A DNA stretch of 40,289 nt from a virus. The DNA is taken from IMG/VR virus record IMGVR_UViG_3300043449_001129, positions 1-40,289 of that record; one strand, given 5' to 3'. The number at the start of each line of letters is the position of its first letter. Position 1 is the stretch's first letter. The position numbers and the translations under genes were made by a program. Positions 4,837-40,289 of the stretch are shown piece after piece. The notes under the pieces were generated by a model. That model was not told where the DNA came from and did no database searches. It saw only the letters and a list, made by a program, of their open reading frames with translations.

Positions 4837-5028
4837 ATGGCAAAGCGCGGACGTCGACCGCTCGAACCGGGTGAGGCGTCGACGGTGCTGGCCGTGCGCC
4901 TGCCTGAGTCTGAGTTCGACCGGCTCGACGAAGCCGCGCGGAATGATCGGCAGACGCTGGCCGAATACGTGCGGCAACGTCTCGCGCCGGCAATTTGTAA
5001 ACACAATTCGGACAACAGCGTGCACTAG
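4837..5028 (+). CDS. Ribbon-helix-helix (CopG/Arc-like) DNA-binding protein
   Basis: 63-residue protein starting three bases after the protease stop. A strand segment STVLAVRLPESEFDRLDEAA is followed by a helix and LAEYVRQRL, which is the layout of RHH repressors (strand, helix, turn, helix). The basic N-terminus (AKRGRRPLEPG) fits DNA contact. RHH proteins act as dimeric repressors. Finding one between the prohead protease and the capsid gene, inside a late operon, is unusual and suggests local control of capsid expression, or chance capture. No toxin partner is next to it. The family call is from pattern only. Confidence 0.75.
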   Translation: MAKRGRRPLEPGEASTVLAVRLPESEFDRLDEAARNDRQTLAEYVRQRLAPAICKHNSDNSVH

Positions 5029-5152
5029 CCCACACTCAACCTGTAGCGCGACTTCCGTCGAAGGCGCGTCTGCTCGCGTGGCCCGGCTTCTCTGCCGGAC
5101 TCCCACGGGTGCAGGCGCGCCTTTTCGCGTTTTCAGGGAGACGACACCGATT
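5029..5152 (+). promoter_or_regulatory. Leader region of the major capsid gene
   Basis: 124-base gap, the longest within the structural module. It holds a GC hairpin (CCGGC-TTCTCT-GCCGG, near 5085-5101) and a smaller CGACTTCCGTCG fold. GGGAG at about 5136-5140 lies 12 bases before the capsid ATG at 5153, a rather long spacing. No clear -35/-10 pair is visible. The hairpin could stabilise the abundant capsid mRNA or be a binding site for the ribbon-helix-helix protein encoded just upstream; both are inference. Confidence 0.35.
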
Positions 5153-6496
5153 ATGGGCATCAAGCAGATCCGGCAGGACAAGGCCGACAACGACGCCGCG
5201 CAGGCCCGCCTCAAGGCCGAAGGCCGCGGGCTTATGGCCGTCGCCGCGCCAACCGACGACCAGAAGACCAGACTGACCGCCATTAACGACGCGCTCGACG
5301 AGCTCGCCGTGCAGGCGGCCGACATCACCAGCCGGCTGGCCATGGCTGAACGGTTCCAGGACGAGGAGCGCAACACGCCGCCGTCGTCCGTTGTTCTCGG
5401 CCAGGACCGTGCCGCGGGCGCGCCCTGGGGCCCGCAGGTGCCGGCAGGCGCCGGTGTGCTGGCCATCACGGAAGCGCGGCATATCGCGCTGGGGAACTTC
5501 GCCCAGGCATGCCGCGTGGCGGCCTTGGGGCAGGGTCTCGACCCCCGCCTGCACGCCGCCGCCACGGGCGCCGGCACCCAGTCGGACAGCAACCTTGGAT
5601 TCGCGGTGCCGAATGAAGTCGCGCCCGGCATCGAGCGCGAAATGTACATGAGCGGCGAGGTGCTCAGCCGCTGCGACGTGCGGACGGTCACCGGCAACAG
5701 CATCGCCTACAACGTGCTCGACGAAATCTCGCGCGCGGACGGCTCGCGTGGCGGCGGTGTCCTGGGCTACTGGGTCGACGAGGGCGCGGCGCCCACGCCC
5801 AGCAACACCAAGCTGGCCCGTATCGAGATGAAGCTCCGCAAGGTCGGCGCCTTCGGCGTCATGACCGACGAGCTGCTCTCGGATGCGTCGGCCCTGGGCG
5901 GCGAGCTCGAATCAGCCTTCGCGGCCGAGCTGTTGTTCCAGACCGAAAACAAAATCTACCGCGGCAACGGCTCGTCGGCGCCGCTGGGGTTCCTGAACGC
6001 CACCTGCCTGGTGTCGGTCTCGAAGGAGACGAACCAGGCCGCGGCCACGATCAACACCACGAACCTGTCGAAGATGTGGGCGCGGATGCCCGCGAGCTCG
6101 CAGCGGAATGCGGTGTGGCTTATCAACGTGGACACGCAGCCGCAGCTCGACGAGCTGTCGCAGGCCATCGGCACCGCCGGCACGGCGCCGCGGTTTGTCA
6201 ACTATGGCCCCGAGGGCACGTTGACCATCAAGGGCCGTCCGGTCATCGCGGTGGAATACGCCGAGACGCTGGGCACCGCAGGCGACATCGCGCTGGTCGA
6301 CCTGTCCCGCTATCGCGTGATCCGCAAGGGTGGCGTCGAGCAGGCGTCCAGCATGCACGTCTACTTCTCGACCGGCGAGCAGGCGTTCCGAGCGTTCTAC
6401 CGCGTCGACGGACAGGCCGTGCCGCGTGCCGCCATCACGCCCTTCAAGGGCTCGTTGACGCTTAGCCCGTTCGTCGTGCTGGCGACTCGTTCGTAA
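5153..6496 (+). CDS. Major capsid protein (HK97 fold) with N-terminal delta domain
   Basis: 447-residue capsid subunit. The first 80 or so residues are charged and helical (LTAINDALDELAVQAADITS), as expected for the delta/scaffolding domain removed by the prohead protease. The rest matches the phage HK97-type capsid family: FAVPNEVAPGIEREM, a long E-loop-like region, VGAFGVMTDELLSDA, the family hallmark ENKIYRGNGSSAPLGFLN, and a terminal region with STGEQAFRAFYRVDGQAV. The reading frame is open upstream to 4871, but that part overlaps the RHH gene, so ATG 5153 is chosen. AAGGAG at the 3' end serves the next gene. Confidence 0.95.
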   Translation: MGIKQIRQDKADNDAAQARLKAEGRGLMAVAAPTDDQKTRLTAINDALDELAVQAADITSRLAMAERFQDEERNTPPSSVVLGQDRAAGAPWGPQVPAGAGVLAITEARHIALGNFAQACRVAALGQGLDPRLHAAATGAGTQSDSNLGFAVPNEVAPGIEREMYMSGEVLSRCDVRTVTGNSIAYNVLDEISRADGSRGGGVLGYWVDEGAAPTPSNTKLARIEMKLRKVGAFGVMTDELLSDASALGGELESAFAAELLFQTENKIYRGNGSSAPLGFLNATCLVSVSKETNQAAATINTTNLSKMWARMPASSQRNAVWLINVDTQPQLDELSQAIGTAGTAPRFVNYGPEGTLTIKGRPVIAVEYAETLGTAGDIALVDLSRYRVIRKGGVEQASSMHVYFSTGEQAFRAFYRVDGQAVPRAAITPFKGSLTLSPFVVLATRS

Positions 6497-8539: not shown

Positions 8540-8874
8540 TGCGGCGACGTGGCGGCACGCGTCGGCACCTGGTGTCGTTGCAGGCGATCACGGGGCGGGT
8601 GGCGTCTGGGGACGGCTACCTGAACACCTGGACGTCGTATGGGACCGCCTACGCGTCGGTGCAGCCGGCCACGGCGTCCGCGGTTGAGCGGCTGACCGCG
8701 GGCACCCTGGAGACGCCGATCACGCACATCGTCGAGATGGACTATCGCGCAGCGATTCGGCCACAACATCGCGTCTGGTTGCAGGAGTCGCGCGCGCTCT
8801 ACATCCGCGGGATGCAGAACGTCGACGAGCGGGACATGACGACCGTGCTGCTGTGCGAGGAGCGGCCGTCATGA
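8539..8874 (+). CDS. Head closure / head-tail joining protein (SPP1 gp16-like)
   Basis: 111-residue protein. ATG 8539 is preferred over TTG 8536 because the TGATG overlap places it exactly at the upstream stop. The family pattern is visible: a basic start (RRRGGTRRHLVSLQ), GDGYLNTWTSYGTAYASVQP, then VEMDYRAAIRPQHRVWLQ and a final strand. These proteins close the portal channel after DNA packaging and receive the tail. The next gene starts inside the stop (ATGA). Short length and order fit the family. Confidence 0.85.
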   Translation: MRRRGGTRRHLVSLQAITGRVASGDGYLNTWTSYGTAYASVQPATASAVERLTAGTLETPITHIVEMDYRAAIRPQHRVWLQESRALYIRGMQNVDERDMTTVLLCEERPS

Positions 8875-9293
8875 GCGCCGTGTTTGAACTTGACACCAAG
8901 TCGCTGCTGGATGCGCTGACCGCACTCGGCCATCAGGTCGACGGCCAGGTGAGTCAGCTCGTCGAGACACACGCGCGCGAGTTCGCGGCCGAGATGCCGT
9001 CCAAGTATCCGTCGGTCACGGGCAATTTACGCGGTCACGTCACGCTGACCCAGGTCGCACCACACGACGTGCGGGTTCGGCTGACGGCGAGGCACGCGCA
9101 TCTGTACGAATTTGGCACCATCCGGCGGTTCACCGCTGAGTCGGGCGCCCATCGAGGAGAGATGCCCGCCAAGCCGACGTTCGTGCCGGCGGTGATCAAT
9201 GCGCGCCTCCGCATGATGCTGGCGGCGGTCGCCTTACTGCGGTCGCTGAAACCCAAGGGATTCAGCGGCGCGCTCGACGTGAGAAAATCGTGA
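8871..9293 (+). CDS. HK97 gp10-like tail/neck protein
   Basis: 140-residue protein whose ATG at 8871 overlaps the previous stop. It has the gp10-like layout: a helical start with KSLLDALTALGHQVDGQVSQL, then YPSVTGNLRGHVTL (typically KTGRLRDS in relatives), then HAHLYEFGTIRRF, matching the family's hYa.yvEyGT segment, and KPTFVPAVINAR near the end. It is a minor neck or tail completion component between head closure and tail terminator. The following GTG overlaps by four bases. Confidence 0.88.
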   Translation: MSAVFELDTKSLLDALTALGHQVDGQVSQLVETHAREFAAEMPSKYPSVTGNLRGHVTLTQVAPHDVRVRLTARHAHLYEFGTIRRFTAESGAHRGEMPAKPTFVPAVINARLRMMLAAVALLRSLKPKGFSGALDVRKS

Positions 9294-9715
9294 GCGCGAT
9301 CGACACCGCTCTGGTGAACGCGCTGAAGGGGGACGCCACGTTGACCGTGCTGGCGCCTGGCGGCGTGTTTCGTGACGTCGCGCCCGAGGCCGTGGTCACC
9401 TCGTCGCTCGCCGATGCCTCGCAGGTATTCGGCCTTGTCACGTTGCAGTCGTCCAAGCGGACCTATGCCTTCGGGTCGCCAGCGTTTGAGGACTGCCTGT
9501 ATCTCGTCAAATTCGTGTCGCCATCGACCAGCCCCATCGGCGCGCAGGCGGCCGTCGACCGCGCGGAAGTCGTGCTCTCCACGCTTGCGGTGTCCGGGTT
9601 TGCGGTGTCCTGCTCACGGCGGGACGAGCGCATTGCCTACGTCGAATCGGATGGGCCGGTGTTCTGGCAACACCGTGGCGTCTCGTGGCTGGTCGAGGCC
9701 AGCCCGACGCCATGA
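9290..9715 (+). CDS. Tail completion / tail terminator-like protein (DUF3168-like)
   Basis: 141-residue protein with the GTG start overlapping the gp10-like stop. The sequence follows the DUF3168 pattern: an N-terminal helix IDTALVNALKGD, VFRDVAPEAV, then YLVKFVSPS as the central strand, a helix AQAAVDRAEVVLSTL, and a late strand AYVESDGPVFWQHRGVSWLV. These proteins cap the tail tube and attach it to the head. Its stop overlaps the glycosyltransferase start (ATGA), which puts that enzyme in the same translational unit. Confidence 0.82.
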   Translation: MSAIDTALVNALKGDATLTVLAPGGVFRDVAPEAVVTSSLADASQVFGLVTLQSSKRTYAFGSPAFEDCLYLVKFVSPSTSPIGAQAAVDRAEVVLSTLAVSGFAVSCSRRDERIAYVESDGPVFWQHRGVSWLVEASPTP

Positions 9716-10797
9716 AGCTGCTGCTGGTCGGTCCGGGTGCGTCGTGGTCCACCGCGGACGTCGAATCGGGCTTGCTCTATGGCTTGCAGCACCACGGCGT
9801 CGAGGTGATCCGCTACGCACTCGACGGGCGAATCAACGGCGCGCAACGGTTCCTCTATACCGCCTGGCGCCTCAAGAAGAAATCCGATCCGACGATGGAG
9901 CGCCCGACCTTTGCGGACATTCTGTATCAGGCGGGCATGGGCGTGCTTGAGCGGGCCTTGCGCCACCAAGTCGACGCGGTGGTCGTGGTGAGCGGCATGT
10001 ATCTGCATCCAGACGTGTTGATCCTGATGCGCCGCGCTGGCCTGAAAGTCACGATTCTGTTTACCGAATCGCCTTATGACGTCGAGCAGGAGCTGCAACG
10101 CGCACAACTGGTGCATGGCTGCTGGACGAACGAGCGCACGTGCGTGGCGCAGTTTCGCAGCGTCAATCCCAATAGCGGCTACTTGCCGCACGCCTGGCAC
10201 CCGGAGCGGCACAAGCCAGGCCCGCAACCGAACGACGACGGGGTGCCCGCGCACGACGTGGTGTTCGTCGGCTCGGCGTTCCGGGAGCGGATTGAATGGT
10301 TCCGCGCGATTGACTGGACCGGCATCGACCTGGGCCTCTATGGCAATTGGGAGGCGCTCGGATCGCGTGATCCGTTGCGGCGGTTCCTGCGCGGCGGGCC
10401 AACATCGAACGCGGTCTCTGCGGCGCTCTACCGACGCGCGAAAGTCGGGTTGAACCTGTATCGCAGCTCGAAGGGGTTCGGCCGGCAAGCCCCACGCATT
10501 GTGCCGTCGTCGGCCGAGTCTCTCTCACCGCGTGCGTATGAGCTCGCGGCGTGTGGCGCGTTCCATCTTTCTGATGCCCGTGCGGAGGTGTGCGAAGTGT
10601 TCGGCGCAGCGGTGCCGACCTTCACCACGCCCACGGAGGCAGCGGCCTTGATCCGGCGCTGGTTGGCAGACGATGCCGGCCGCGCGGCTGTGGCTGCTTC
10701 ACTCCCGGCCATGGTGGCTGAGTCGTCGTGGGTGCATCGCGCATCACACGTCATCACGGATCTGGCCGCGCTGATCGATGCGCGGCGCGTGGCGTAG
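9712..10797 (+). CDS. CgeB-like glycosyltransferase (GT4-type fold)
   Basis: 361-residue predicted sugar transferase. It opens with a Rossmann strand MKLLLVGPGA, continues with VVVSGMYLHPDVLILMRRAG and VTILFTESPYD (about 90-123), and has the linker SGYLPHAWHPERH (155-167) and VVFVGSAFRERIEWF (183-197). The C-terminal donor-binding block SPRAYELAACGAF (272-284) is the signature of the Glyco_trans_1_2 family. ATG 9712 overlaps the tail completion stop (ATGA), so it is embedded between tail completion and major tail genes and not a late insertion at an edge. In-frame codons to 9685 lie inside the previous gene. Likely acceptors are a virion protein, a host surface glycan or DNA; the location points to a virion protein. 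The acceptor is inference. Confidence 0.85.
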   Translation: MKLLLVGPGASWSTADVESGLLYGLQHHGVEVIRYALDGRINGAQRFLYTAWRLKKKSDPTMERPTFADILYQAGMGVLERALRHQVDAVVVVSGMYLHPDVLILMRRAGLKVTILFTESPYDVEQELQRAQLVHGCWTNERTCVAQFRSVNPNSGYLPHAWHPERHKPGPQPNDDGVPAHDVVFVGSAFRERIEWFRAIDWTGIDLGLYGNWEALGSRDPLRRFLRGGPTSNAVSAALYRRAKVGLNLYRSSKGFGRQAPRIVPSSAESLSPRAYELAACGAFHLSDARAEVCEVFGAAVPTFTTPTEAAALIRRWLADDAGRAAVAASLPAMVAESSWVHRASHVITDLAALIDARRVA

Positions 10798-10809
10798 GAG
10801 TACACAGCA

Positions 10810-11208
10810 ATGGCGAAATATCACGGACAGGGCGGACGCGTTTACATGTCGACCAGCGGCGGCGGCACGGCGGTGCAGCAGGTGGCGCTGACCTCGTGGT
10901 CCCTGGACATGCCCACCGATCGCGTGGAAGTCACGTCCTTCGAGGACAACAATAAAGTCTACGTCCAGGGCAAGCGCGACATTTCGGGCTCGCTCGCGGG
11001 CTACTACGACGACACCGACGACAGCCTCTTCGACGCGGCGGACAGTTCCACGCCCGTGAAGATGTATCTGTATCCGACCTCGGCGGTCGCCACCCAGTAT
11101 TTCTACGGCACGGCGTGGGTCGACGCGTCGATCGAAGTCGGCGTCGATGCGGCCATCACCGTTTCCGGCACGTTCCAGGCGGCGACGACCTGGACGCGTA
11201 AGCCGTAA
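10810..11208 (+). CDS. Major tail (tube) protein
   Basis: 132-residue protein with GGAG overlapping the previous stop. Key segments are LTSWSLDMPTDRVEVTSFEDNNKVYVQG, quoted here in part (RVEVTSFEDNNKVYVQG), then RDISGSLAGYYDDTDDSLFDAA, of which GSLAGYYDD is typical, and a final beta strand set (ITVSGTFQAATTW). This is the layout of siphovirus tube proteins that stack in hexameric rings. Position just before the frameshifted chaperone and tape measure supports this strongly. Confidence 0.88.
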   Translation: MAKYHGQGGRVYMSTSGGGTAVQQVALTSWSLDMPTDRVEVTSFEDNNKVYVQGKRDISGSLAGYYDDTDDSLFDAADSSTPVKMYLYPTSAVATQYFYGTAWVDASIEVGVDAAITVSGTFQAATTWTRKP

Positions 11209-11219
11209 ACGCGTAGCGC

Positions 11220-11504
11220 ATGGGTCATTCGCTGGGAGTCAGGGGACGTGAGGGACGCCTCAAGGTCGGCTATCAAGTGGCCGCCGAGCTGGGCGCGTTC
11301 TCCATGTCGCCTGGTGTCCCCGGCGAATGGCAGATCGAGGCATCAGTCGTCAAGGCTGATGAGTTTTGGCTAACCCAGGATGGCACGCGAACGCTCGAGC
11401 TCACCGTTGGCGCACAACGGTGGATCTGGCGCAACGCGGATCGACTGGTGGTGGACGGAGGCACGGTGAAAGGCACCGTGGCCGGCCGTCCCGAAAGGCG
11501 GTAG
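11220..11504 (+). CDS. Small tail-module protein, unrecognised
   Basis: 94-residue ORF between the tube protein and the tail assembly chaperone. It has a basic start and a short beta-type domain with WQIEASVVKADEFWLTQDGTRTLELTV and WIWRNADRLVVDGGTVKG (only motifs, not the full sequence, are given). No strong ribosome binding site is visible. It lies three bases before the next gene. It may be a minor tube component, but there is no recognisable family. Confidence 0.65.
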   Translation: MGHSLGVRGREGRLKVGYQVAAELGAFSMSPGVPGEWQIEASVVKADEFWLTQDGTRTLELTVGAQRWIWRNADRLVVDGGTVKGTVAGRPERR

Positions 11505-11507
11505 ACG

Positions 11508-11963
11508 ATGGCGAAGCGACTGCGTTTTGTGCAACCGGTGACCGACCGGCTGGATCTGACGGACGGCGATTGGCTCGAGGTGAAACGGCAACTGACCGTG
11601 GGCGAGCGCCGCGGCATTCTCTCGCGGGCGGCCAAGGGCGGCGTGTCGACGGATGGCCAACGGGTGCATCTGGACGGTGCGGAAATGGCCTTTGCGCGTG
11701 TTGAGACGTGGCTGCTGGATTGGTCGTTCAAGGACGCCACCGACAAGCCGATGAAGCTGACGCCGGCGGCGATACGCGCGCTGGACGCGGACTCGTTTGC
11801 GGAGATTGAAACCGCGCTCGACAAGCATGAAGAGGCGGTCGACGCCGCAAAAAACTCGCCAGCGTCGATGGCGCCTGGGTCATCGACGCCGACGCTGCCC
11901 GCGACCGCCTCCGAGGCGAGTTTGCGCTCTGCCTCCGGCTCGGATACACCTACGGGGATTTGA
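11508..11963 (+). CDS. Tail assembly chaperone, zero-frame product (gpG-like)
   Basis: 151-residue short product. It starts at ATG 11508 three bases after the previous stop. The domain to residue 115 or so is soluble and helical with PVTDRLDLTDGDWLEVKRQL and WLLDWSFKDATDKPMKLT, as in siphovirus chaperones of the tape measure protein. After the slippery site, the zero-frame tail becomes low in complexity (Ser, Thr, Pro, Ala), as expected for a reading frame that is not under protein selection. The gene lies directly before the tape measure gene, as in lambda, HK97 and many others. Confidence 0.9.
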   Translation: MAKRLRFVQPVTDRLDLTDGDWLEVKRQLTVGERRGILSRAAKGGVSTDGQRVHLDGAEMAFARVETWLLDWSFKDATDKPMKLTPAAIRALDADSFAEIETALDKHEEAVDAAKNSPASMAPGSSTPTLPATASEASLRSASGSDTPTGI

Positions 11964-12123: not shown

Positions 12124-15100
12124 ATGGCGCTTTCAGCATCGTTGAGTCTCGACATCAAATCGTTCCAGGCCGGCCTTGATCGGGCCGAGGTGGAATTGCA
12201 GACGTTCGAGCGCGCGACGAAATCCGTCAACCGTGATCTGAAGCGGTTGATGGAGGATTTCTCCGGACAGAAGATCGCGGTGGAAGCCGAGCGCATGGCC
12301 GAAGCGGTCAAGCGCCTCGGCGGCGCGTCGAAGCTCACCGAGAACGAGCAGCGGCGCGTCAATACGGCCGTGACAGAGGCGCTGGCGAAGTATCGGGCGC
12401 TCGGGCAAGAGGCGCCCGCGCATCTTGTGGCGCTGCAAACGGCGACGGCTGGCACGACGACGAAGACCTCGGCACTCGTTGGCGCTGTCGGCCAGATGGC
12501 GGCGGCGTTTTCCGTCGCGGCCCTGGTGCAACGTGCGGCCTCGGCGCTGATCAGCTTTGGCGCGGCGGCGTTACGGAGCGCGGGAGAACTGACCGACTTG
12601 CGTGCGGCCACGGGCGTCTCGCTCGGCATGTTGCAACGCTGGGGGCACGTCGCTGAACAAGGCGGCGTGCAGCTTGAGGACATGACCAAGGCGTCGTTCA
12701 AGCTGGGCGTGGCGCTTGACGGCGGCAGCGGGTCCGTGCGTGAGGCGGTGTCGCGTCTCAATCTGTCGTTTGAGTCGCTGCGCGCGATGAAGCCGGAAGA
12801 CCAGCTCGACACGATTTTGCGTGCGGCGGATGCGCTCGGACCCTCACAAGAGCGCAACGCGGTCCTGGTCGATCTGTTTGGCGCAAATGGCGCGGTGGCA
12901 CTGGCAAAGGTGTCGGATGGCTACGCCGGCGTGGCCGATGAAGCCTCGCGCTCGGCGGATCAGCAGATCGAAGCGCTGGACCGGGCGGGCGACGCCTGGG
13001 CGCGGCTGCTGCGGAATGCGGGCACGTTGGCCACGTCTGCGTCTGGCACGCTCGCGCTCTGGGCCGAAGACTTATTGGCCGCCGTCAAGCTGACCACCGA
13101 TGGCCTGGATCGATTCAATTCGGTGCAGAAGATCGTGATTGCGCAAATTCTGAACAACGGCGGCGAAGGGCTGGCCGAGTTCATCCGCAAGATTGACGAG
13201 GCGCAGCAGTCGTCCACGAACGCCATTGGGCAGCAGTCGAGCACGACCACCAATTATGTGCAGGCGTTGACAGCGATGCGCGCGGAGATTGCCGAAGTCG
13301 TCAAGGCGCACGGAACGCAACTTGAGGCGGCGATCAAGCTGGGCGTGTCTCAGGAAGAGATTGAGCGTCGGTTCGGCTTGTCGGCCGAGGCCCAGCGGCT
13401 TTACTCGTCGATGACGAAGGACGCCACGGCAGCAACAAAGGCAGGCACGACGGAAGCCACACGCCGCGCAGAGGCGGAGGATCGCTCCCAGAAGCAGTTC
13501 CGCGACTCGATCAAGTTCCTGGACATGTACAAGGGCGGCTATATGGCCGTCACGAACGCGATCGAGGACAACAGAGCGGCGATTAATGACGTGCGCCAGT
13601 CGATGGAGGCGATGAGCCGGATCACCTTCAATAATAATTTTGTTCCGTTCACCGCGGCCGTGAAGCAGTTGTCCTCGGGCGCAATGCCGAAGTTGAAAAC
13701 AGAGGTGAAGAACACAGAGGATGCGCTTGGCGATCTCTCAAGTGCTCTTGCAGACTTCGCCCAGATTTCGGGCGGCAAAACGCTGGACAGTCTGTCGAAA
13801 ATTGTTGGCGGCATGGCTGCGGCCGCAAAAGCGACGAAGACATTTACGGATGCGTTGGACGGCTGGAAAACGACAAAGACCGTCAGCGGCCTCATCCAAA
13901 TGTCTGGTGCTGTGCTCACACTGGTGTCGTCGCTCAAGCAGATGGCAAGCGCGTCGAAGGACGGGTCGTTTGAGCAACTGGGCACGATCATCGCTGGCGC
14001 GCAAGCCGGGATGAAGATTGGCGGCGCCATTGCGCCCGGTATCGGGACGGCCATCGGCGGGTTTCTTGGAGCCGTTTCAGGATTCGTCGCAAACATGGTG
14101 TTTGCCCAGAAGAAGGTGCAGGAGATTTCAAATCTGCTCAAGGAATGGCCGGACATCATTGCCACGTCCACCACTAATACCGGGTTTCTCCGCAACAATT
14201 TAGGAGAGACGTTGCGGGAGATGGTGAGACTTGGACGCGCCACGCAGGCCGTCAAGGACTATGTGGCGGACCTTGCGTCATTGATCACTGAGGGCTTCAA
14301 CGGCGTGGTGCTCGGCGTGGTGCGCTGGGAGGCGGTTGGCGATGCGGTCAGAACGGCGCAGAAGAATATTGACGATCTGAACAAGACCGACCTCAAAGAC
14401 CGCGGCACCGAGTGGATTTTGAAGATGGCCACGGCGCAGAAGGCGTTAACGGCTGCCTTAGAGGAGCAGTATGCCGCCGCCGCAAGCGCCAGAAGTTCGC
14501 TTGCGGATCTTGGCACGCAAGCTTTGGCCACGTTCAATGCCGCCATGGCGTCGGGTTTGACCTTCAGCCAGGCGCTGACCAAAATCCAGCCAGGCATCCA
14601 GGCACTCATCAAGGCATACGCGGATCTCGGCATCCCGATTGAAGACGCGGGCCTGAAGTTCCTAGCGACGGTTAGTCAGATTGTTGCCGGCAACCCTGCG
14701 CTAATCGCCGGCGTCGATGCTTTAGCGCAGAGCGTAAAAGCGCTTACCAATCTGGGAATGTTGGACCCGGCGACGTTCTCCGCGATGCAGCGCACCGCGA
14801 TTGACATGTTCACACGGATCGCAGCTGAGGTTGAAAAGGCCGGGCTGACTGGCGAGGAAGCGGCCCGCGCGACCTTGCTGCCGATGCAGCAGTATCTGCG
14901 CGATGCCGCAGAAGCGGCAAAAAGGCTCGGCATTCCACTGAGCGAAGACACGCAAAAGATGATCGATCAATCAAAGGCGCTCGGCATCTGGCAGGACAAC
15001 TCCGAAACCATGATTGATGTCCTTGTCGATATGCGTAGCGCCATTCGTGAGCTCGTCGACGCGCTTAAAGGCATCCCGCGCAAAACTACTACCGAGATTG

Positions 15101-15432
15101 AAACACGCTACACCACCACTGGAGCGCCGCCGGACCCGGACCCGGACCCTGACCGTGACGGTAAGCGCAGAGGGTTTGCCCACGGCAGTGGCGGTATCAA
15201 AGACTTCGGCCGCGGCACGCCCGCCGTGCTGCACGGCCGGGAACGCGTGCAGACCGAGGCGCAAATGCACGCCGAGCAGAAGTCCCTGGTGAATAGCGGA
15301 GCGGCGTCACGCGTCACCACGCCGATCGTGACGTCAGGCACCATCGTCGTGCCGCTCTACATGGACGGCAAACAAATTGCCGAGGCGACGGTACCGTATA
15401 TTCCGGCTGCCCTCTCACGGAGGGGCGTCTAG
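12124..15432 (+). CDS. Tape measure protein
   Basis: 1102-residue protein whose length sets the tail length and which may pass through the tube into the host envelope at infection. It starts with the usual LSLDIKSFQAGLDRAEVELQ pattern (quoted in part: DIKSFQAGLDRAE), is largely coiled and helical, and has two hydrophobic stretches, about residues 118-150 and 622-660, the second Gly/Ala-rich (AGMKIGGAIAPGIGTAIGG). The C-terminus has FAHGSGGIKDFGRGTPAVLHG and ERVQTEAQM, common at tape measure ends. From the usual relation of about 1.5 angstrom per residue, a tail near 165 nm is expected. The stop overlaps the next GTG by one base (TAGTG). Confidence 0.95.
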   Translation: MALSASLSLDIKSFQAGLDRAEVELQTFERATKSVNRDLKRLMEDFSGQKIAVEAERMAEAVKRLGGASKLTENEQRRVNTAVTEALAKYRALGQEAPAHLVALQTATAGTTTKTSALVGAVGQMAAAFSVAALVQRAASALISFGAAALRSAGELTDLRAATGVSLGMLQRWGHVAEQGGVQLEDMTKASFKLGVALDGGSGSVREAVSRLNLSFESLRAMKPEDQLDTILRAADALGPSQERNAVLVDLFGANGAVALAKVSDGYAGVADEASRSADQQIEALDRAGDAWARLLRNAGTLATSASGTLALWAEDLLAAVKLTTDGLDRFNSVQKIVIAQILNNGGEGLAEFIRKIDEAQQSSTNAIGQQSSTTTNYVQALTAMRAEIAEVVKAHGTQLEAAIKLGVSQEEIERRFGLSAEAQRLYSSMTKDATAATKAGTTEATRRAEAEDRSQKQFRDSIKFLDMYKGGYMAVTNAIEDNRAAINDVRQSMEAMSRITFNNNFVPFTAAVKQLSSGAMPKLKTEVKNTEDALGDLSSALADFAQISGGKTLDSLSKIVGGMAAAAKATKTFTDALDGWKTTKTVSGLIQMSGAVLTLVSSLKQMASASKDGSFEQLGTIIAGAQAGMKIGGAIAPGIGTAIGGFLGAVSGFVANMVFAQKKVQEISNLLKEWPDIIATSTTNTGFLRNNLGETLREMVRLGRATQAVKDYVADLASLITEGFNGVVLGVVRWEAVGDAVRTAQKNIDDLNKTDLKDRGTEWILKMATAQKALTAALEEQYAAAASARSSLADLGTQALATFNAAMASGLTFSQALTKIQPGIQALIKAYADLGIPIEDAGLKFLATVSQIVAGNPALIAGVDALAQSVKALTNLGMLDPATFSAMQRTAIDMFTRIAAEVEKAGLTGEEAARATLLPMQQYLRDAAEAAKRLGIPLSEDTQKMIDQSKALGIWQDNSETMIDVLVDMRSAIRELVDALKGIPRKTTTEIETRYTTTGAPPDPDPDPDRDGKRRGFAHGSGGIKDFGRGTPAVLHGRERVQTEAQMHAEQKSLVNSGAASRVTTPIVTSGTIVVPLYMDGKQIAEATVPYIPAALSRRGV

Positions 15433-21951: not shown

Positions 21952-22208
21952 TGTCCGAGCTCCTGATTCCTCTGGCGCCTGGCAGCCTGCTGGCGTCCGC
22001 CTCGGGCGAGCTTGAGCGGCAGATCCGCGCGGTCGTGCCGCCGGGCAAGCGCGGGGCCGCCATGACCGTGGTGGACAAGGACGGCGTGCGCGTCGGCATT
22101 GCGGCGGTCTACAAGGACGCGGTAACGGTGAGCCTGGAGATCAGCAAGCGATGGGCCACCGGAACCGCGCCGCCTGATGCCTCGCTCAAGATCAAGGCGG
22201 TGTTCTGA
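21951..22208 (+). CDS. Small unrecognised protein (85 aa)
   Basis: 85-residue protein beginning with a hydrophobic but not typical signal stretch (MSELLIPLAPGSLLASASG). It then shows VVPPGKRGAAMTVVDKDGVRVGIA and VTVSLEISKRWATG, a small alpha/beta domain. It is linked by TAATG upstream and TGATG downstream to its neighbours, which supports it being translated. No family is recognised. Confidence 0.65.
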   Translation: MSELLIPLAPGSLLASASGELERQIRAVVPPGKRGAAMTVVDKDGVRVGIAAVYKDAVTVSLEISKRWATGTAPPDASLKIKAVF

Positions 22209-22366
22209 TGCCGTTCGATCCGAGAGAGGCTTTCGTGACGTGTCCTCGCCGGTGCGACGTGGCCACGCTGCCAGAGCCGGTGCAGAACCGGCCGGGCCAC
22301 TACGCCTGCACCGCGTGCGGGCACGAGTTCACGTTCAGAGCCGACCCGCCGATGGTGTCTCGATGA
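22208..22366 (+). CDS. Short zinc-ribbon protein (52 aa)
   Basis: 52-residue ORF with TGATG at its start and ATGA at its end. Two cysteine pairs, CPRRC and CTAC (followed by GHEF), form a rubredoxin-like or zinc-ribbon pattern about 25 residues apart. It is too small to be an enzyme. It may bind zinc and nucleic acid or be a partner of the methyltransferase just downstream. It is supported by tight overlaps on both sides. Confidence 0.65.
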   Translation: MPFDPREAFVTCPRRCDVATLPEPVQNRPGHYACTACGHEFTFRADPPMVSR

Positions 22367-22917
22367 ACCTCACTAGCCGCGAAGAGAGCACGTATACCGA
22401 CGCGCTGAGCCTGCCGAGCTATGGCGACTTTTCACCCGGCGAGGTGTATGCGCCAGTGTTTGCGTCCCTGGCCGACCCGCGCAGCACGGTGCTCGACGCG
22501 GGCGCGGGCACGGGCGCGGGGATGCGCGCGCTGCAGGCGCTCGGCTACCGCGTCACGGGCGTCGATCTCCCCGATCTACAGGTGCCTGGCGTGCGCGCGG
22601 GTGTGTGCTTGTGGCGACCGTTGCCGCCACCGGCACGCGGTGAGCGCTACGACTACGTGTATTGCACCGACGTGCTTGAGCATATCCCGCCGGAGTTCAC
22701 GATGCTCTGTGTGGCGCGGATGATGGAGGTGGCCGAGCGCGGGTTGTTCCTGTCGATTGCGCTGGTGCCGGACCATTTTGGTTCGTGGGTTGGGCATCCG
22801 CTGCACCTCACCGTCCGCCGGTATGACGAGTGGCTGGACAATTTGCGCGAGCTGGCGACCGTCACTGACGCGCGCGACCTGGGCACGACGGGCCTGTATT
22901 TCTTGGAGCCACGATGA
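22363..22917 (+). CDS. SAM-dependent methyltransferase (class I)
   Basis: 184-residue protein. Motif I LDAGAGTGAG lies at about residues 44-53, followed by RVTGVDLPDL (acidic residue that holds the SAM ribose) and motif IV YDYVYCTDVLEHI (about 103-115), then a LFLSIALVPDHFG strand and HLTVRRYDEWL. ATG 22363 overlaps the previous stop. It is followed by overlap (ATGA) with the MptE/Maf-like gene, so the two are probably made together. Class I small-molecule or sugar methyltransferases have this form; no DNA methylase motif (DPPY, NPPY) is seen. Substrate unknown. Confidence 0.85.
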   Translation: MNLTSREESTYTDALSLPSYGDFSPGEVYAPVFASLADPRSTVLDAGAGTGAGMRALQALGYRVTGVDLPDLQVPGVRAGVCLWRPLPPPARGERYDYVYCTDVLEHIPPEFTMLCVARMMEVAERGLFLSIALVPDHFGSWVGHPLHLTVRRYDEWLDNLRELATVTDARDLGTTGLYFLEPR

Positions 22918-23795
22918 ACGCGCCAGTCATGGACGACGTGACGCGCGAGGTGACGCCGTCGCCGGTGTTTGAGGGTCTGACGCTCGTGGGCGACGTGAAC
23001 ACGGACACGGCCACGGTAGTGCGTCATATCTCCTCCTCGATCCGCCGCCAGTATCCGCAGGTCTGGCCAACGGCGGTCAACGCGCACCGCGTGGTCGTGG
23101 TGGGGGGTGGGCCGTCGCTCGAATCGACCTTCGCGGAGCTGAAGGCGCTGGTGTTTGCTGGCGCGAAGCTCGTCGCGCTGAATGGCGCGTATCAGTGGCT
23201 GCTCGATAGAAACCTGCAGCCACGGGCGCATATCATCCTCGACGCGCGGCCGGAGTCGGCCAGTCTCGTCGGGCCAGCCCTTCCAGACTGCCGGTATTAC
23301 ATCTGTAGCCAATGCGCGCCTGAGACCTGGGACGCGGTGGCCGGTCGGCCGAATGTGGCGATCTGGCACGCCGGTGGCGGGCCTGAGATTGACGACGTGC
23401 TGAATAGCTATTACCTCAAGCACTGGATCCATGTTACAGGCGGCACGACGGTCGGCACGCGCGCGATTGCGCTACTGCGGACGCTCGGGTTCCTCCGGTT
23501 TGACCTGTTTGGCTTAGATTCCTGTTGGATGGACGATCAGCACCACGCCTATCCTCAGGCGCAGAATGATCGCGATCGACGGTATCGCCTGACTATTGAA
23601 GCGAAAGATAGCAGCATGCCCGCGCGCACGTTTCACGTCGCGCCGTGGCATGTCCAACAGCTCGAGGACTTCGTGCTGTTTGTGCGGGCGCATGGGGACA
23701 AGGTGTTACTTCGCATTCATGGCGATGGCCTCTTGGCGTATGCGTTAGAAGCGCTGGGTTCGGATGTCGTTTATCATGTAGAAGAGAAGGAGTAA
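22914..23795 (+). CDS. MptE/Maf-like protein (DUF115 domain)
   Basis: 293-residue protein of the DUF115 type. VVVVGGGPSLES (about 60-71) is the nucleotide-binding loop, followed by LVALNGAYQWLLDRN, ILDARPESASLV and, near 180-195, a VTGGTTVGTRAIALLRTLGF helix and FGLDSCWMDD. Relatives include archaeal 6-hydroxymethylpterin diphosphokinase MptE and bacterial Maf proteins that transfer pseudaminic or legionaminic acid to flagellin. Next to a methyltransferase and with a CgeB-like enzyme elsewhere in the phage, a sugar-transfer role is favoured. The end carries AAGGAG for the next gene. Activity is inferred. Confidence 0.72.
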   Translation: MNAPVMDDVTREVTPSPVFEGLTLVGDVNTDTATVVRHISSSIRRQYPQVWPTAVNAHRVVVVGGGPSLESTFAELKALVFAGAKLVALNGAYQWLLDRNLQPRAHIILDARPESASLVGPALPDCRYYICSQCAPETWDAVAGRPNVAIWHAGGGPEIDDVLNSYYLKHWIHVTGGTTVGTRAIALLRTLGFLRFDLFGLDSCWMDDQHHAYPQAQNDRDRRYRLTIEAKDSSMPARTFHVAPWHVQQLEDFVLFVRAHGDKVLLRIHGDGLLAYALEALGSDVVYHVEEKE

Positions 23796-29268: not shown

Positions 29269-30363
29269 CTATGTTTTGGCGTGTTTGCGGCCGGACGTGC
29301 GTATAGCGTGCGCGGATCTGTTGTGCGGCTTGCGGCTCATGGCATCCACCAGCGTGCGATCGACCTTCGTCGGCCGGGTGTATCGCAGCACGGACTTGAG
29401 GTCGCGCCAGCCGCCCAGGGCCATGAGGTCGCGCAGGGACGCGCCGGCGTCAATGGCGCGGGTCGCGCCGGTGTGCCGCAGTCCGTGCCACGTCATGCCG
29501 TCTGGGCGTCCGTAGGGCACGCCAGCGGCCACGCAGGCGGCGCGGAACCGATAGGTCGCATTGTTGGCGCGGGGCTTTGCGGTCCGCACGGCGAGGTGGT
29601 GGAACACGTAAGCGCCGGAGCGCTCGAGGCCGTCAAGCGCGCGGCGCAGTCGGGTGGAGACCGGCACCCGGTACGGCTCGGTCTTGGGGTCCGGGATCTC
29701 GAGGTGTGTGCCGTGGTCCTGCGACCACTGCAAGCCGACGAGATCGGCCAGGCGGATGAGGGTATCGAGCGCGCCGATGAGGAGCGCCTGATCGGGCGGT
29801 GCCATCACGCGCAGCAGCTGGCGTTCGTCGTCGTAGCTCAGGATGCGCGGCGCGGCGGCACGGGCGCGAAGACGGTGCATCCCGTGCAGCGGATTCGTGG
29901 GCACGTATTTGGGCGTGGCGGCGCTCAGCATGGACTTGAGCACGTCGAGTTCGCGGTTGACCGTGCCGGGCTTCACCTGTTCGCGGCGGGCCGTGACCCA
30001 TTCGCGGGCCAGGGCTTGGTCGATGAGGTGCAGCGGATAGCGACCGAAGAAGCGGGTCAGTGTGCGGATCGCGCTGGCTTCGCGGGCGGCGGTGCGTTTG
30101 GTCGGGGTGACGTGCGCGGCATACCAGGCCGCGTAGGTGCTGAAGGTGACCTGCTCACGCTCGACGGCGAGGCCGTGGCGCTGGCGCGCGAGGTCGCCCA
30201 TGCGGGCGGCGTAGATGGACTCAGCGAGCGCGCGGTTCTCTTTCAGCACGCGCGGCGGGACGCCTTTGGCGAGCACCCGCGACGACTCGCGGATCTGCGG
30301 CAAGCCCGCACGTTCAAGCATCAACCAGAAGTATTTCGAGTCCTTGCGGACCACCACGCCCAC
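29269..30363 (-). CDS. int: Tyrosine-family integrase
   Basis: 364-residue site-specific recombinase for integration into the host chromosome. The catalytic set is complete apart from a known substitution: Arg204 (TLIRLADLVGLQW), Lys227 (PDPKTEPYRVPVS), His293 and Arg296 (WHGLRHTGAT), Trp319 in the usual His/Trp place (GGWRDLKSV) and the nucleophile Tyr328 (LRYTR). An N-terminal arm-binding domain and a core-binding domain (VTFSTYAAWYAAHV to about 165) precede it. It starts at GTG on the - strand (30363), 9-10 bases after GCAGGAAGA. A divergent or upstream A+T-rich zone with two TATAAA boxes (30400-30420) may hold its promoter. The repeats at its 3' side suggest attP. Confidence 0.95.
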   Translation of the reverse strand: MGVVVRKDSKYFWLMLERAGLPQIRESSRVLAKGVPPRVLKENRALAESIYAARMGDLARQRHGLAVEREQVTFSTYAAWYAAHVTPTKRTAAREASAIRTLTRFFGRYPLHLIDQALAREWVTARREQVKPGTVNRELDVLKSMLSAATPKYVPTNPLHGMHRLRARAAAPRILSYDDERQLLRVMAPPDQALLIGALDTLIRLADLVGLQWSQDHGTHLEIPDPKTEPYRVPVSTRLRRALDGLERSGAYVFHHLAVRTAKPRANNATYRFRAACVAAGVPYGRPDGMTWHGLRHTGATRAIDAGASLRDLMALGGWRDLKSVLRYTRPTKVDRTLVDAMSRKPHNRSAHAIRTSGRKHAKT

Positions 30364-39169: not shown

Positions 39170-39754
39170 GTGACCGCATACTTGATTCGGCTGGCCCGGT
39201 GCGCGCACGCCGATGGGCCTGCTCATGTCATGCACACTGCCGCATATGCCTATGTCGAGCACATGCTCGCCCGGCATCCCTACGCTCCCGACGCCTATGT
39301 CGTCGAGATCGGCGGACGGGACGTCAACGGCAGTGTGCGTGCGTTGTTCCACACCCCCGCGGTGCGCTACCTCTCCACCGACGTCAGCGACGGCATCGGC
39401 GTAGATCAGGTGGCCGACGGCGCGACTCTCACCCTCGACACGCCGGCCGATGTTGTCGTGTGCTGCGAGGTGCTCGAGCACGCCGCCAACGCGGGCGACA
39501 TCGTGGCCAACATGGCCAGGATCGCCACACCAGGCGGTCTGCTCCTCATCACCGCCGCCGGCGCGCACGACACCTGGGCCCGCGCACCACACTCCGCCAT
39601 TGACGGCGGCGACATCCGCGAGGGCGAGCACTACGCCAACATCACGCCGCACGCGTTGTCCGCATGGCTGACTCAGGCCGGCTGCGTCGACGTGCAGATC
39701 TGGCTGAACGCCGCCGCCTGCGACATCTACGCCAGCGCACGGGTCGCGCACTGA
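39170..39754 (+). CDS. SAM-dependent methyltransferase (second, class I)
   Basis: 194 residues from GTG 39170; an ATG at 39230 (starting HTAAYAYVEHML) gives 174 residues and may be the true start, since TTGACA (39156-39161) would put transcription near 39190. Motifs: VVEIGGRDVNGSVRALF (about residues 43-59) as the SAM loop, YLSTDVSDG, ADVVVCCEVLEHAANAG (about 92-108) and ARIATPGGLLLITAAG. The pattern is of small methyltransferases found in phage surface-modification and capsule-type gene groups. Its stop shares a base with the HNH start (TGATG). Substrate unknown; not a DNA-methylase motif. Confidence 0.8.
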   Translation: MTAYLIRLARCAHADGPAHVMHTAAYAYVEHMLARHPYAPDAYVVEIGGRDVNGSVRALFHTPAVRYLSTDVSDGIGVDQVADGATLTLDTPADVVVCCEVLEHAANAGDIVANMARIATPGGLLLITAAGAHDTWARAPHSAIDGGDIREGEHYANITPHALSAWLTQAGCVDVQIWLNAAACDIYASARVAH

Positions 39755-40263: not shown

Positions 40264-40289
40264 GCCATCTTCGCGCAAACTGCTATTCA
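40264..40289. repeat. Terminal direct repeat, right copy
   Basis: Exact copy of bases 1-26 (see left copy). It shows that the sequence closes into a circle and that the gap after the HNH gene continues into the terminase start at 57. Confidence 0.9.

Follow-up and report, generated by a model that had tools for sequence, protein, structure and literature searches.

A gene lying among the neck and tail genes of a viral genome was found to encode a predicted soluble glycosyltransferase of the GT-B fold, which probably adds a sugar to a virion protein; the subunit of the tail tube, whose gene lies beside it, is the likeliest acceptor. The window, by which we mean the whole 40,289-base stretch of the virus record, carries an exact 26-base repeat common to both ends (1-26 and 40264-40289), and it is thus probably a complete, circularised genome. 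The glycosyltransferase gene (361 amino acids; 9712-10797, plus strand) was assigned from a PF13524 match, an AlphaFold2 model, matches to GT4-like structures in the PDB and the comparison of 106 distinct loci.

The structural genes considered here are all on the plus strand. The major capsid protein is encoded at 4871-6496 (phrog_10, major head protein, E 9.6e-36). An HK97-gp10-like protein of the tail completion or Neck1 type is encoded at 8853-9293 (PF04883, E 1.6e-4; phrog_5, E 2.1e-7), and the HK97-gp10/phrog_5 match belongs to this gene, one gene ahead of 9290-9715. For the latter, Pfam and PHROGs searches gave no family above chance; its own profile matched a protein of Microcystis phage Mae-JY09 that is annotated as 'tail completion protein' (E 6.6e-16), and from this match and its position it is taken as a tail completion or terminator-type gene. 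Downstream of the glycosyltransferase, the 132-amino acid tail tube protein, the most likely acceptor, is encoded at 10810-11208 (phrog_10528, major tail protein, E 3e-8). Its model (pLDDT 91.6) has the monocin tail tube as best PDB match (TM 0.84), and the lambda V and R4C tubes are also among its structural matches. The next genes are orf94 (11220-11504; 94 amino acids, conserved in 89/106 loci) and orf151 (11508-11963; 151 amino acids, 85/106 loci), the second being chaperone-like by position; neither was assigned to a family by Pfam and PHROGs searches. The 1102-amino acid tape-measure protein (12124-15432) was recognised from its size, position and homologues at the same place in relatives, there being no Pfam or PHROGs match above chance.

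Elsewhere in the window, a tyrosine integrase is encoded at 29269-30363 on the minus strand (PF00589, E 1.1e-11), and the phage may accordingly be temperate. Downstream of the tail-hub genes, at 22177-23795 (+), stands a methyltransferase (PF13489, E 5.5e-9) with a four-base overlap with the gene of an MptE-like protein (PF01973, E 4.4e-14). PF01973, which we take to be the fold of the Maf flagellin glycosyltransferases, exceeded the Pfam cut-off in one of 21 related records, that of the window alone, and the two genes may form a second modification pair.

The frame at 9712-10797 is open from its ATG through 361 codons to a stop. Its start overlaps the stop of the preceding gene, which ends at 9715, by four bases (ATGA), and the tail-tube gene begins 12 bases past its end; a real gene overlapping a tail-completion-type gene and preceding a tail tube gene, as the initial annotation had it, is therefore confirmed, with family and model agreeing on the tail tube. 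The ratio dN/dS was approximately 0.12 against the relative L001 and approximately 0.24 against L003, which indicates purifying selection. The protein matched PF13524 (Glyco_trans_1_2) with an E value of 3.3e-17 and 63.2 bits (cut-off 25). PHROGs gave no credible match, and neither NCBIfam nor sequence searches of solved structures gave a credible glycosyltransferase relative; tblastn of 50,697 phage records returned no match at E 1e-5 and three partial ones (E 4 to 6) when the limit was raised to 10. The AlphaFold2 model, based on an alignment of 79 relatives (A4), had a mean pLDDT of 95.9 and two domains in GT-B arrangement, with whole-length matches to GT4-type structures. The protein is thus predicted to be a soluble GT-B (two-Rossmann) enzyme.

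The best solved matches of this model were GT4-like, namely BshA (Z 26.6, 320 residues aligned), PimA and MshA, and several of the best viral structural matches were annotated as 'Spore protein YkvP/CgeB glycosyl transferase-like', so that the earlier description of the protein as CgeB-like was apt. The residue E277 is invariant in all 79 rows of A4 and position 269 is Glu in 74 of them; these two, in E-x7-E spacing, are presumably the EX7E donor-site glutamates of retaining GT-B enzymes. The window protein thus resembles PF13524 and GT4-like enzymes (CgeB-like, BshA, MshA, PimA) in whole-length fold and EX7E-type spacing, but it shares 11-17% identity with the solved ones, whose acceptors are mostly small molecules, lipids and polysaccharides, whereas the window family is phage-borne and bound to one genomic slot.

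The distribution of this family was examined in uncultivated viral contigs. A scan with six relatives as queries found a relative encoded in 327 of 398 candidate stretches, of which 80 were kept for further analysis, and another, for which the tail tube was the sole query, found 103 of 117, of which the nearest 80 (48-78% identity to the window) were kept. These two scans, the first scan and the window's own locus made a pooled set of 148 loci, or 106 distinct loci after removal of identical gene copies. The glycosyltransferase was present in 148/148 pooled loci, including all 80 from the tail-tube scan; because that scan kept the nearest 80, this universality holds for the group and not for all such tail tubes. 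By profile search it preceded the tail tube, with no recognised gene in between, in 102/102 distinct loci that reach the tail tube, the contig ending earlier in the other four, and the four-base start/stop overlap with the upstream gene was seen in 60 of 103 loci. When the divergence of seven module genes was compared across 35 loci, the glycosyltransferase was the most conserved (mean distance 0.50), followed by the tail tube (0.65), and the remaining genes ranged from 1.12 to 1.58. The highest partial distance correlation of the glycosyltransferase in these loci was with the tail tube (0.39; 0/500 permutations) and the next with head closure (0.33); this lends weak support to a link, as both the glycosyltransferase and the tail tube were search queries and show low saturation, which favours the pair.

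Scans of genome contigs gave no relatives and then three, and the cassette together with the tail tube was found only in a Propionibacteriaceae MAG, on a 5.6-kb contig (L154, JAJTCL010000258.1) with the order DegT-glycosyltransferase-tail tube-orf94-orf151. It is the sole hint of a host, and with the uncertain binning of so short a contig it is too little for a host to be named.

Other enzymes also occur in the slot, which is bounded by the completion genes on one side and by the tail tube on the other. Genes in each locus were assigned by profiles and not by connected-component clustering, because fused frames merged the glycosyltransferase and GT2 in the latter. Among 89 loci in which the slot is entirely visible (closed slots), 77 contained a partner enzyme and 12, the window among them, the glycosyltransferase alone. 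The partners were methyltransferases (51), GT2-type proteins (27) and radical-SAM proteins (9), some slots holding two, and a DegT aminotransferase with GT2 occurred in three further loci with open slots. Fusions into one open frame were found between GT2 and the glycosyltransferase in seven loci and between a methyltransferase and the glycosyltransferase in one. Pfam matches to Methyltransf_11/23, Radical_SAM plus SPASM, DegT/DnrJ/EryC1 and Glycos_transf_2 were obtained for single representatives, and some GT2-type proteins, having no Pfam match of their own, were named by profile kinship. The MTA and MTA2 profiles were iterated and overlap, and the split between them is soft; the frame at 2641-3156 of L005 served in the methyltransferase comparison.

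At least five of the 12 loci with the glycosyltransferase alone carry such enzymes elsewhere (L013, L029, L032, L043 and the window). In the window it is a SAM-dependent methyltransferase at 39170-39754 (+), assigned from PF13489 (E 1.3e-9), phrog_32762 (E 1.7e-15) and its placement in relatives, where homologues stand directly before the glycosyltransferase or before a capsid-adjacent paralogue of it. If the ends of the window are joined, this gene lies just ahead of an HNH gene (39664), with the small terminase across the join. Two loci, L243 (G001:C1:32000-51000) and L244 (G010:C1:10000-26000), have sugar islands of several kilobases upstream of the neck genes, with a distant GT-B protein and several GT2 proteins each and a radical-SAM protein in L244; the two distant PF13524 proteins fell outside the glycosyltransferase group in the tree.

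The strongest hint on the target comes from outside the window, in the form of a paralogue on the capsid side. With the second glycosyltransferase copy of L013 as query, this paralogue (GTM) was found in 13 contigs, and the next recognised gene was visible in 12 of them. The major capsid gene followed it immediately in seven (L246, L247, L248, L249, L257, L258 and L259), which represent five lineages since L246/L247 and L248/L249 are near-copies; it lay between the head-closure and completion genes in four (L286, L301, L028 and L076) and before the portal in one (L250). The gene directly before the capsid-adjacent copies encodes a methyltransferase of the 39170 family in L248, L249, L257, L258 and L259, and GT2 in L246 and L247. 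A tail-tube-type copy coexists with GTM in all seven contigs that reach the tail slot (L246, L247, L258, L259, L286, L028 and L076). In an IQ-TREE phylogeny of 50 rows, the ten head-module copies entered grouped as a single clade (100/98) inside the tail-tube copies, and the capsid-adjacent ones, together with that of L260, whose contig ends, formed a subclade (100/97). The window has no paralogue before its capsid gene and a single PF13524 match in the whole record. Position of GTM thus follows phylogeny, as expected of a duplicated tail-tube enzyme re-targeted to the capsid.

These results bear on a serious rival, in which the glycosyltransferase modifies another virion protein (capsid, neck or tail fibre) and adjoins the tail tube through late co-expression only. 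We consider this unlikely, though well worth weighing: head closure ranks second in the distance correlation, and a single portal-adjacent cassette of Corndogvirus modifies both capsid and tail tube according to the part of PMC11600133 available. Adjacency to the tail tube is nevertheless kept in 102/102 loci, although the other genes of these relatives have diverged strongly, and a subset of them has a separate paralogue by the capsid gene. The position and phylogeny of that paralogue are the main reason for favouring a placement linked to substrate over mere late expression. It is quite possible, if short of probable, that two paralogous GT-B lineages exist, one encoded next to the tail tube and modifying it and the other, arisen by duplication, standing in the same relation to the major capsid protein, with swappable same-slot partners varying the chemistry of the coat.

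More distant tail-tube relatives were free of the glycosyltransferase. None of the enzyme profiles matched any of 82 Pelagibacter-type tail-tube loci. In phi3LM21, CRP-406 and CRP-811 a 'minor tail protein U' gene is followed directly by the tail-tube gene, one small gene intervenes between the two in DSL-LC06, and the larger intervening gene of Mae-JY09 and Edmundo is itself tail-tube-like by profile. With the slot empty or devoid of sugar enzymes in these relatives, the cassette seems to have been inserted and then fixed in the lineage of the window; intermediate relatives without the glycosyltransferase are thinly sampled here, as a further tail-tube scan yielded nothing beyond close kin of the Pelagibacter phage used as query. 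A Ser/Thr-rich loop of the tail tube had seemed specific against two Pelagibacter phages and phiPsal1; it was dropped as a mark of the acceptor, being present also in CRP-406 and DSL-LC06, which have no glycosyltransferase.

Virion glycosylation has been established for the mycobacteriophages Che8, Corndog and Myrna according to citing papers (PMC12363180, PMC12619734, PMC11600133), and modification of the Corndogvirus capsid and tail tube is reported there (PMC11600133, citing Freeman 2023). Corndogvirus (cluster O) has a methyltransferase and glycosyltransferases inside its head module, similar to the structural-module cassettes of the window's relatives, 51 of whose 89 closed slots hold a methyltransferase, whereas that of the window is at 39170. 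The enzymes are not homologous, those of Corndogvirus being a TylF-type O-methyltransferase and GT2-like and GT25-like proteins. In Idergollasper, which has the Corndog-type cassette in the order portal-OMT-hypothetical-GT-GT-protease-capsid, genes 33-36 did not match the profiles built from the window's group, and unlike in that group no sugar-enzyme gene stands beside the tail-tube gene. Homologues of the 39170 methyltransferase adjoin glycosyltransferases in Zuko, S-CBS4 and phiPsal1; the one in Pontimonas phage phiPsal1 lies between two glycosyltransferases and the one in Synechococcus phage S-CBS4 after two, both within the structural module and close to the capsid or portal. A profile comparison of the GT-B enzymes of these two phages with the window family, with a single sequence on one side, showed nothing significant, and unlike in the window none of them abuts the tail tube. 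The location, called uncommon at first, is thus only partly so: glycosyltransferase-methyltransferase cassettes occur in the structural modules of Corndogvirus, S-CBS4 and phiPsal1, and within the window's group the position is the rule. In the parts of the literature searched, we found no recognisable description of a tail-tube-linked GT-B family or of paired capsid and tail-tube paralogues. Virion glycosylation is known in mycobacteriophages with non-homologous enzymes, and the enzyme family of the window would be a new one for it.

From the predicted fold, conserved motif, synteny and paralogue we infer the following course. The glycosyltransferase would be made late, in translational coupling to the neck and tail genes, and would use a nucleotide sugar of the host to glycosylate a virion protein soon after its synthesis, the subunit of the tail tube being the likeliest acceptor. 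A same-slot partner (methyltransferase, GT2, radical-SAM protein or aminotransferase) would make, extend or cap the sugar in most relatives, and the methyltransferase at 39170-39754 is the probable partner in the window. The product might coat the particle surface and protect it from antibodies or grazers, from non-productive binding or from defences of the host. Immunological shielding by virion glycans is described for mycobacteriophages and mice only, in the sections of the literature surveyed.

Other acceptors were also considered. Modification of the host surface (teichoic acid, LPS or capsule) with a block to superinfection is improbable and fits less well. Phage glycosyltransferases altering the host surface are known. 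The known enzymes of serotype conversion, however, are bound to the membrane and encoded close to lysogeny genes. The window protein, in contrast to a Gtr-type serotype-converting system with its membrane glycosyltransferase, flippase and bactoprenol transferase, is modelled as a soluble two-domain enzyme, and its late structural position, same-slot partners and capsid-adjacent paralogue also speak against this reading, which has been proposed for glycosyltransferases of actinophages in the available part of PMC10202952. Slightly more improbable still is glycosylation of phage DNA with hypermodified pyrimidines, in the manner of the T4 alpha- and beta-glucosyltransferases. The T4 DNA alpha-glucosyltransferase did match the model (Z 22.2), which makes the fold silent on the choice between acceptors, and hypermodification of bases is a role that the radical-SAM and aminotransferase partners could fill as well; yet the gene sits in a late structural module, and PF00303 (thymidylate-synthase/dCMP-hydroxymethylase-type) was found in 0/21 records as against 9/14 control genomes. 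Tet_JBP was found in 0/21 records and in 0/14 controls as well. A catalytically dead enzyme kept as an assembly factor is hardly credible and less fitting. The first motif glutamate has, it is true, given way to Gln in L001-L003, the closest three relatives, and to Tyr or to Ala in another two. Yet E277 and other invariant residues are kept in 79/79, the partners act on sugars or methyl groups, and GT2 fusions exist.

The first proposal, of a virion protein as the target and the tail tube as a candidate, has gained from the gene's position in relatives, the swappable partners and the capsid-adjacent paralogue, which strengthen and widen it to a good inference from sequence comparison. Glycosylation of phage-particle proteins has been shown in a few mycobacteriophages only, in the portions of the literature surveyed. 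The presence of a core, strongly conserved gene throughout a large uncultivated group, from which 327 stretches matched in one scan, suggests that these phages routinely glycosylate their own tails and that a subset of them does the same with the capsid. If the position of the enzyme marks its target, the acceptor could be guessed from gene order alone, which would make the biochemical question simply testable. A fixed slot with changing partners has the look of a coat whose chemistry shifts rapidly, and if the two-paralogue reading is true, related phages would differ in coat chemistry while the transferase is kept.
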